Positions 34,586 to 40,308 of a DNA stretch of 64,000 nt are shown one piece after another. The notes beneath the pieces were generated by a model. The model had not been told where the DNA came from and searched no databases. It worked only from the letters and a program-made list of their open reading frames with translations. The position numbers were made by a program, and so were the translations under genes. The stretch lies in contig JACRLN010000002.1 of NCBI GenBank assembly GCA_016215115.1, forward strand, positions 62,001 to 126,000, read 5' to 3'. The DNA comes from Nitrospirota bacterium. Lineage in GTDB: Bacteria; Nitrospirota; Thermodesulfovibrionia; UBA6902. Within the stretch, counting starts at the first letter, position 1. Each line of letters begins with the position of its first letter.

Positions 34586-34711
34586 GCATTGCTTAAATAA
34601 TTATTTACATTTTTTATTAGACTTCAATCTATAAATGGTGTAATTAAACTTTATATCTCATGTTAAGGCGTTTGTTTACATAGATCAAAAAACTTAAGAA
34701 AGGAGACTGTA

Positions 34712-35973
34712 ATGAAGATGTTAAGATTAGTTCTGGTGTCGCTTTTTATAGCGATACCGCTTGTAACGGGCATTGCCTTTGCATCTGAAAAGGCAAAAAC
34801 CGTTGATGAACTCGCACAGATGTATGATGTAAGCTCGTGCAAGCAGTGCCACCCAAAGATTTATGAGGAATGGGAGAAATCCATTCACTCTCACTCCCTG
34901 ATAGGGACCGGCAGCACGGCTGGAGCCCTAAAAGGCTTAGTAGGCGCTCTTAAGAGCACCTTTACAAAGTCCGGAGTAAAGGAAACAAAGGATGTAAAGG
35001 TTGAACACTTTATGGAATGCTTCAAGTGCCATCTGCCTCAGATAAAAGATGCATCAGATGAGGTTGCCCAGCAGATTGCCAGGGCCCTTGAAGATGGAGA
35101 CAAGGCAACCCTTGCGAAAGTAAATATCAACTGTCTCGTTTGTCACAATGTAAAGGCGATCGTCCACAAATGGCAGGACGGCGAGCCCGAGAAAGGTGTT
35201 ATTTACGGTTCCAAGGACGGTGCGCATGCTGACAGATGTATGCAACTCTAAAAAAGAGTGTAATAATGAAAGAGGTTGTCATGTGCGGACAATGCCACGG
35301 TCTGGGTCCAAACTTTGAATTCCCGCAGCCTTCTCAATGTGCAACGCTTTATGGAAGCTACACACATGCCTATGTACCTTCCGGCGGCGCAGAAACATGT
35401 CAGGACTGCCACATGAAGAAATCCGGTAAGGGCCATACTATGCCGGCTTATCGTGACCCTGATATGCTTAAAATGGCTATGGATGTAGAAGTAACTGCTC
35501 AAGGTTACAAGGCCTTCCCGGAAAATTTAACTCCGATGGCTGTAGTTACCGTCAAGACTGCAAACAAGGCAGGGCATAGAATACCTGACGGCTGACCCTC
35601 CTCAAACAGAGTGGTCCTGGATGTGACCGCTAAAACAAAAGATGGTAAAGAAATATTTAAGAACTCGAAAATCTATATGCCTCAGGCAACAAACAGCCGC
35701 GGCGATGAGATGAAATACGGCGCGCAATTCAAAATGGGGCTTATCCGCGATACAAGCCTTCAGCCGCTTCAGACAAGGGAAGAAAAATACGAGATAACGT
35801 TCCCCTATGAAGACGTGGAGAAAGAAGCCGGCAAACCCAAAGTTAGAGAGATAATGGCAAAAGAAATGGATGTCACTGTGGAACTGCGGTATCAGCTTGA
35901 CCCGGCAGTAGGTGAGATCGACAAGAGGAGTTTCGTTATATACAGCACAACAAAAACAGTCAGCGTCAAGTAA
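34712..35973 (+). CDS. multihaem cytochrome c, ExtKL-like candidate selenoprotein; in-frame TGA at 35593-35595 and a separate frame disruption near 35237-35248
   Basis: Signal peptide; five CXXCH motifs (CKQCH, CFKCH, CLVCH, CGQCH, CQDCH); homology-like continuity AGHRIPDG-[TGA]-PSSNRVVLDVTAKTKDGKEIF across the TGA. Confidence 0.7.
35610..35631 (+). promoter_or_regulatory. candidate bacterial SECIS hairpin downstream of the in-frame TGA
   Basis: AGTGGTC-CTGGATGT-GACCGCT: 7-bp stem (one G-U), G-containing apical loop starting 21 nt after the TGA. Confidence 0.55.
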
Positions 35974-36000
35974 GAACAGAACAAGACAACTTATACTTCA

Positions 36001-36034
36001 AGCCCCGCTCATAAATGGGCGGGGCTTTTTAGTG
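36001..36034 (+). terminator. intrinsic terminator after the cytochrome gene
   Basis: AGCCCCGCtcataaatgGGCGGGGCTTTTT. Confidence 0.9.
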
Positions 36035-36783: not shown

Positions 36784-37992
36784 TTACTGATTTTTTATTT
36801 TATCATTCAAGCTACTAATTGTATCTGTTAAAATTCCGATCTGTTCCGAGAGCTTGTGCAAAACTTTACTCTTTTGCTTTTCTATTTGGGGGGGTTCATT
36901 TTTCTTTTTCGGATTTCTATCGGCAGACATCAGATCCAACATGGATATTCGCTCAGAAAGTTCGTTTATCCGATTTTCATTCGGAGTAGTACTTAATTTA
37001 GACATATCTCCATCTAATTGGACAATCTTTTCATTTAAAGTAAAAATCTCCTGAATACAACTGTTAACGATTTCTTCAAGTTTAAAAAGTCTTAGTGAAA
37101 CATCCCCAACTATTTTTGATAAATCTATCCTCTCATTTTTTTTGACTTCCTGAGAAAAGGTAGTATCCCCATTCTCATTCCAGGAATCATTCGATTTCAG
37201 ATCTTTTACAACTTCCCTTACAATGTCAACTGTTACTTCATCTTTCCCGGCGACGAAGGCAGTAAGTAATACAAAATCACACAGGATATTAATAAGTCTT
37301 GGAATACCTTTACTGAATTGATAAACAAGAGGCAGCATGTCCTCCTGAAGTTTTATAGCTTCAGGATTGCCGGCAATAGTAAGGCGGTGTTTGATATACT
37401 GGGCGGTTTCATCAATTGTTAGTGGCGCAATATGGTAGTTAATGTTAATGCGCTGACGCAATTGCTTCAATTCCGGAAGCATAAGAATCTTTTTTAGCTC
37501 TGGTTGTCCAACAAGTATTATTTGAAGAAGTTTTGCACTGTCAGTCTCAAGATTGGAAAGAAGTCGTATCTCCTCCAGTAATTCGGGCGAAAGATTTTGT
37601 GCCTCATCAATTAATAATATTGGTTGATAGTTTTTTGAATACTGTTCAATAAGAAATACGTTCAAATCGCTTAATAATCTGGTTTTATTTTTCCCTTCAA
37701 TATCCAGACCAAAATCTTCATTGATCATTGCTATAAGCTGCTCAGAAGAAATTTTTGTATTATGTATTCTTGAAAGTTTGACTGAACCGTTAAGGTTTTT
37801 AATGAAATTACGGATTATTGTTGTCTTGCCCGAGCCAATTTCGCCTGTCAGGAGTATAAAACCAATTTTTTCCTTTAAGCCATAATCAAGGCAGGTAATC
37901 GCCTTCTTATGGGTGCTGCTTAGAAAGAGTAAGTCAGGATTAGGGACTAACTCAAACGGCTTATGCTTAAATGAAAAATGTTTTTCATACAT
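36784..37992 (-). CDS. ExeA-like / exosortase-associated AAA ATPase
   Basis: YEKHFSFKHKPFELVPNPDLLFLSSTHKKAITCLDYGL; LLTGEIGSGKTT; LLIDEAQNLSPELLEEIRLLSNLET. Confidence 0.88.
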   Translation of the reverse strand: MYEKHFSFKHKPFELVPNPDLLFLSSTHKKAITCLDYGLKEKIGFILLTGEIGSGKTTIIRNFIKNLNGSVKLSRIHNTKISSEQLIAMINEDFGLDIEGKNKTRLLSDLNVFLIEQYSKNYQPILLIDEAQNLSPELLEEIRLLSNLETDSAKLLQIILVGQPELKKILMLPELKQLRQRININYHIAPLTIDETAQYIKHRLTIAGNPEAIKLQEDMLPLVYQFSKGIPRLINILCDFVLLTAFVAGKDEVTVDIVREVVKDLKSNDSWNENGDTTFSQEVKKNERIDLSKIVGDVSLRLFKLEEIVNSCIQEIFTLNEKIVQLDGDMSKLSTTPNENRINELSERISMLDLMSADRNPKKKNEPPQIEKQKSKVLHKLSEQIGILTDTISSLNDKIKNQ

Positions 37993-39732: not shown

Positions 39733-40308
39733 ATGAAAAAACTTCCTATTTTGATAGCAGCAACAATATTGATATATGCGTTGGCAGTTCCTGTTCATGC
39801 AAGCCTCATAGACAGGGGAAGCGGGCTCATATATGATAATGATTTAAATATTACATGGCTTCAGGATGCAAATTATTCCGGTCCCACAATGACATGGCCT
39901 ACTGCAATGGCATGGGCAGATAACCTAACATTTCAGGGTTTTGATGACTGGAGACTTCCCGCATCTGATGCCTGTTCCGGTAATAGCTGTTCTGGAAGTG
40001 AAATGGGACATCTTTATTACAGCGAGGGAACAACCTCAGACTCAAGCGGACTCTTTCAAAACGTTAAACCTTCACTATACTGGTCAGCTTCTGAATATGA
40101 AAATGATCCCTCGCAATCATGGCGGTTTAACTTCAAATATGGCACACAGGGGGTCAGCAATAAGGATACATTGAAATATGCCTGGGCAGTTCGAAATGGT
40201 GATGTCACACCTCCGGTTGCCCCTGAACCTGTAAGTTCTGTGCTCTTCCTTGCAGGCGGAACTGTATTGGCTGCAAGAAGATACCGTGGAAAAATGAGAA
40301 AAGGTTAA
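39733..40308 (+). CDS. secreted DUF1566-like protein with C-terminal PEP-CTERM sorting signal
   Basis: Signal peptide; FDDWRLPASD...YWSASEYENDPSQSWRFNF; C-terminal APEPVSSVLFLAGGTVLAARRYRGKMRKG. Confidence 0.85.
   Translation: MKKLPILIAATILIYALAVPVHASLIDRGSGLIYDNDLNITWLQDANYSGPTMTWPTAMAWADNLTFQGFDDWRLPASDACSGNSCSGSEMGHLYYSEGTTSDSSGLFQNVKPSLYWSASEYENDPSQSWRFNFKYGTQGVSNKDTLKYAWAVRNGDVTPPVAPEPVSSVLFLAGGTVLAARRYRGKMRKG

Follow-up and report, generated by a model that had tools for sequence, protein, structure and literature searches.

A frameshifted member of the ExtKL multihaem cytochrome (seleno)protein family in a Nitrospirota genome

The region at positions 34712-35973 of the analyzed 64-kb stretch of DNA (hereafter, the window) can be identified with high confidence as an extKL gene, whose UGA codon is decoded as selenocysteine (Sec) in intact copies, the window copy additionally lacking one base. 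ExtKL is already known, and the window gene is a further member of it, not a new candidate family. A cytochrome c family containing a TGA codon, GSU2937+GSU2936, was predicted to be a selenoprotein in 2007 (PMC1914089). In published accounts ExtKL is a pentahaem cytochrome in which a predicted Sec TGA stands between ExtK and ExtL (PMC6148476, PMC5877670); the two may, according to one of these, form a single Sec protein (PMC6148476), and ExtKL is listed among prokaryotic selenoprotein families in a 2026 review (PMC13188914).

Gene structure and family assignment

The following features of the gene and its flanks were identified.

34700-34705, plus strand: Shine-Dalgarno-like AAGGAG, 6 nt 5' of the ATG (read directly)
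34712-35251, plus strand: extKL part 1, haems 1-3 preceded by a signal-like N-terminus (ORF; NF040886 profile positions 11-193, 198.8 bits)
35231-35251, plus strand: frameshift zone, one base shorter than in relatives, including the first-frame TAA and without an in-frame slippery heptamer
35236-35595, plus strand: extKL part 2, haems 4-5 and the start of the C-terminal domain, up to the TGA (ORF; NF040886 profile positions 194-314)
35593-35595, plus strand: in-frame TGA that encodes Sec in the family and corresponds to U325 of MccSep (alignment with homologues and MccSep)
35596-35973, plus strand: extKL part 3, the C-terminal domain, an immunoglobulin-like beta-sandwich (NF040886 profile positions 316-423, 108.7 bits; AlphaFold2 model of the orthologue L042)
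35610-35631, plus strand: SECIS-like hairpin AGTGGTC-CTGGATGT-GACCGCT (folding, stem conservation and codon conservation)
36000-36030, plus strand: terminator-like inverted repeat AAGCCCCGC...GCGGGGCTTTTT, 3' of the gene (read directly)

The terminator-like repeat had no match in the pattern scan, and the promoter scan yielded a single weak match, on the minus strand, with a score below the shuffle mean.

The original prediction placed the gene in an ExtKL-like family, and the profile matches bear this out. NF040886 is the NCBIfam profile "multiheme c-type cytochrome (seleno)protein ExtKL", for which the curated threshold is 250 bits. Part 2, with the TGA read through, exceeds this at 312.2 bits, part 1 adds its own score over the rest of the profile, and the TGA falls on profile position 315. 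The model thus spans the entire window gene, as it does ExtKL of Geobacter (GSU2937-GSU2936), with which the five CXXCH motifs, the C-terminal domain and the Sec TGA column are shared. Among PDB entries, the gene matches the multiheme cytochrome c selenoprotein MccSep (PDB 9wt8, 9wt9, 9wta, 9wtb and 9wtc, including a U325A mutant). In phmmer comparisons MccSep aligns with part 1 (E 2.1e-45) and part 2 (E 1.7e-65), the TGA being placed on U325, but MccSep is intact and the window copy is frameshifted. A paper naming MccSep was not found in the literature search.

All five CXXCH motifs expected from the original prediction were located (34838-34852, 35018-35032, 35132-35146, 35284-35298 and 35398-35412), as was AGHRIPDG-TGA-PSSNRVVLDVTAKTKDGKEIF, the residues around the TGA reading AGHRIPDG-TGA-PSSNRVVLDVT. 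The haem motifs are, however, divided between two frames. The region had been taken for a single frame broken by the TGA alone, but the frame starting at 34712 ends at the TAA at 35249-35251, and thus there is no single translatable ORF even apart from the Sec TGA; the descent of the gene is unaffected by this, which concerns only the functionality of the copy. The splitting of the ORF track at the TGA does occur as described, but a second split lies upstream, making two places in total.

The intact orthologue L042, modelled with AlphaFold2 without haem (mean pLDDT 75), is helical in the haem region, which is followed by the beta-sandwich, and the Sec position is predicted to come after the second strand of the latter domain. 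The top solved fold found by Foldseek for this model is pentahaem cytochrome c552 from Thermochromatium tepidum (PDB 5ZE8, E 5.4e-13). Its sequence also matches both parts of the gene, though weakly (~19% identity), and it has no Sec, with Ala in the corresponding column (MPTG-A-P). Structural homology to ExtKL has also been reported for the small pentahaem cytochromes (sPHC) found in cable bacteria, one of which likewise has a two-gene structure, its gene lying apart from the ext cluster (PMC11976967).

The selenocysteine site and its decoding

Matches to the family are present in 121 of the 150 related genomes, with 97 genomes over the NF040886 cut-off, and most genes over the cut-off contain exactly one TGA. 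The TGA occurs in the GU[PL] context in 72 sequences, the window gene included, and stands at the Sec column in 65 full-length homologues. Cys occupies the same column in three homologues (L045, L048, L052) and in one of the paralogues from the window's own genome, the other paralogue having TGA. Hence, in the GHxxPDG-U/C column either Sec (TGA) or Cys is found, as the proposed comparison with homologues anticipated; an exchange of this kind is the usual comparative argument for a Sec site. The proposal of Sec at the TGA is therefore supported at the level of the family, by the homologues and by U325 of MccSep. In PDB chain 9wt8 the residue aligned to the TGA is a modified one (X).

The paralogue with TGA (HDLPHG-U-V) is located at G000:C32:62751-63956, and the one with Cys (GHVIPHG-C-I) at G000:C35:59585-60730; both are stand-alone genes. 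Together with the window gene, the three paralogues (Sec; Cys; Sec with a frameshift) form a useful small natural set for studying the contribution of Sec to a haem-fed redox site.

The 7-bp hairpin was found as originally described, with one G-U pair (35610-35616/35625-35631) and a loop beginning 21 nt past the TGA. Its reading as a SECIS element holds by codon and stem conservation, while folding energy alone lends it little weight: z-scores for the hairpin region are -1.1 and -1.5, and in several relatives, including L042 and L044, a different minimum-energy fold is predicted. Where a residue is conserved between the window gene and the 65 homologues, the codon is identical as well in 85% of cases for codons +4 to +11 past the TGA, compared with 42% gene-wide, this being the top 8-codon window of the gene. 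Across 65 distinct sequences the stem positions are paired in 83.7% of cases, sliding of the 3' arm lowers this to 17-59%, and six double changes occur; these pairing and double-change values were reached by 0 and 11 of 1000 shuffles, respectively. As the shuffle results are inflated by kinship among the sequences, the codon result was given more weight. Thus, it is conservation and not thermodynamics that sets the hairpin beyond chance, and by this comparative evidence it is clearly under selection. The Rfam scan of the region gave no SECIS match, only two sub-threshold sRNA matches.

These observations bear on the possibility of an ordinary pseudogene, in which the frameshift and the TGA are both disabling and Sec is not involved. 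The frameshift is indeed present in the assembly and unique to the window copy, but in dozens of intact homologues from several families a TGA occupies the Sec column, and the window's TGA aligns with U325 of a solved selenoprotein and is followed by the codon-conserved hairpin, all of which makes such an explanation very improbable.

The genome contains selA, selB, selC and selD, the set whose presence was to be checked according to the original prediction: a tRNA-Sec with anticodon UCA (75.2 bits), selA (627 bits), selB (342 bits) and two selD genes. The selD genes (G000:C8:8365-9291 and G000:C42:1733-2647) have one in-frame TGA each, and hence SelD itself is probably a selenoprotein here, in two copies.

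Approximately 4 kb upstream of the former selD there is a tRNA gene (G000:C8:4547-4638, also L111:4547-4638) with a long tRNA-Sec-like extra arm and a Cys anticodon (GCA), which resembles selC* tRNA-Cys. Such tRNAs have been reported from Nitrospirae too, and there are ones with UCA anticodons in Desulfobacterales (PMC7609411), so that a Sec-like tRNA-Cys could be imagined to insert Cys instead of Sec at the UGA. Still, the GCA anticodon pairs with UGC/UGU, ruling out this tRNA as the UGA decoder, and the genome also has a normal tRNA-Sec(UCA); reading as Cys is hardly to be expected, and decoding as Sec is retained.

The frameshift upstream of the selenocysteine codon

The first frame ends at the TAA because a single base is missing some 350 bp upstream of the TGA, a frameshift that was overlooked in the original prediction. 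The -1 frame, open from 35233 and with an ATG at 35236, contains haems 4-5 and the Sec domain. Compared with relatives, one base is missing between GAC (35231-35233) and TAT (35239-35241), the window reading GAC AG-ATG TAT, 1 base short. The junction is continuous in the orthologues L042, L044 and L053-L056 (70-75% identity; e.g. HADK-VYKAMKKSVI) and in eight more homologues. None of the relatives examined lacks this base, ruling out a conserved frameshift. As the profile is covered by part 1 up to position 193 and by part 2, read through the TGA, at positions 194-423, the two frames join with a loss of at most about one residue.

Due to the frameshift, the gene as assembled cannot yield the protein via Sec insertion alone, and a full-length product cannot form from it. 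Part 2 by itself lacks a signal sequence and therefore should escape export and haem attachment.

One way to obtain the intact joined protein would be double recoding, that is, a programmed -1 frameshift joining parts 1 and 2 followed by Sec insertion. Part 2, lying in the -1 frame, does have a 16-nt overlap with part 1; on the other hand, no relative needs such a mechanism, and no in-frame X_XXY_YYZ heptamer was found 5' of the stop. The only candidate, AAAAAAG at 35250, was rejected, being in the wrong phase and starting inside the TAA; since the A6 run begins within the stop codon, slippage there would come too late, after termination. We consider double recoding exceedingly improbable, and equally so its variant in which the three ORFs would give a single cytochrome through a -1 frameshift of some novel type around 35234-35248 and subsequent insertion of Sec.

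Hence the window copy may be either broken or misassembled. Its divergence from the orthologues is mostly at third positions in each of the three parts, and its identity to outgroups is not lowered, with no acceleration seen; the break is therefore recent or artefactual. All five CXXCH motifs, the SECIS and the third-position bias are retained, so that inactivation, if any, must be recent. The absence of other decay mildly favours a sequencing or assembly error in an otherwise intact Sec extKL gene, and such breaks do occur in assemblies, as exemplified by a family member with Cys (G131:C39:1551-2722, L114), frameshifted at a run of seven C elsewhere in the gene than the window copy. Against an error, the missing base is outside any homopolymer (GACAGATGTATGC), and no other split gene was seen by eye in the 64-kb window, which indicates that indel errors are uncommon here and mildly favours a real mutation. 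On this evidence we judge an error somewhat short of an even chance, and recent inactivation of the copy slightly better than even.

Among other homologues, the one at G029:C33 has a different internal break, and the one at G033:C1 ends early at a TAA.

Proposed function and gene context

The extKL (MccSep) product would be a pentahaem cytochrome of the c type that is exported and has a beta-sandwich as its C-terminal domain. Where the gene is intact, the UGA of HRIPDG-U-P is expected to be decoded by tRNA-Sec(UCA), with SelB held by the hairpin immediately 3' of it. Sec may then be the redox-active residue, supplied by the haem chain and possibly used to reduce an acceptor in the periplasm; selenite is the acceptor suggested for Geobacter, where the ext cluster has been linked to selenite and tellurite reduction, with ExtKL named as a candidate (PMC5877670). 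In the window copy as assembled, the loss of one base near 35231-35239 puts haems 1-3 in a different frame from the other two haems and the Sec domain.

Unlike Geobacter ExtKL, the window gene has the additional frameshift and is outside any extHIJKLMNOPQS cluster. The ext cluster context known from Geobacteraceae is absent around the window gene and around its orthologues in two other genomes (G003 and G018), all three genes being stand-alone. The window gene is flanked by dapB and an adenylylsulfate-kinase gene (names given by eye from translations), and the neighbours of the G003 and G018 orthologues differ. The ext cluster context is lineage-specific and does not define NF040886. In practice, gene callers based on stop codons break up ExtKL genes, and the combination of NF040886 with the SECIS signature recovers them outside Geobacter, probably in Nitrospirota.

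Downstream in the window, a gene at 39733-40308 encodes a small secreted protein with a PEP-CTERM-like tail (PVAPEPVSSVLFLAGGTVLAARRYRGKMRKG), and near it, at 36784-37992, lies an AAA ATPase gene of the type met near exosortase loci.
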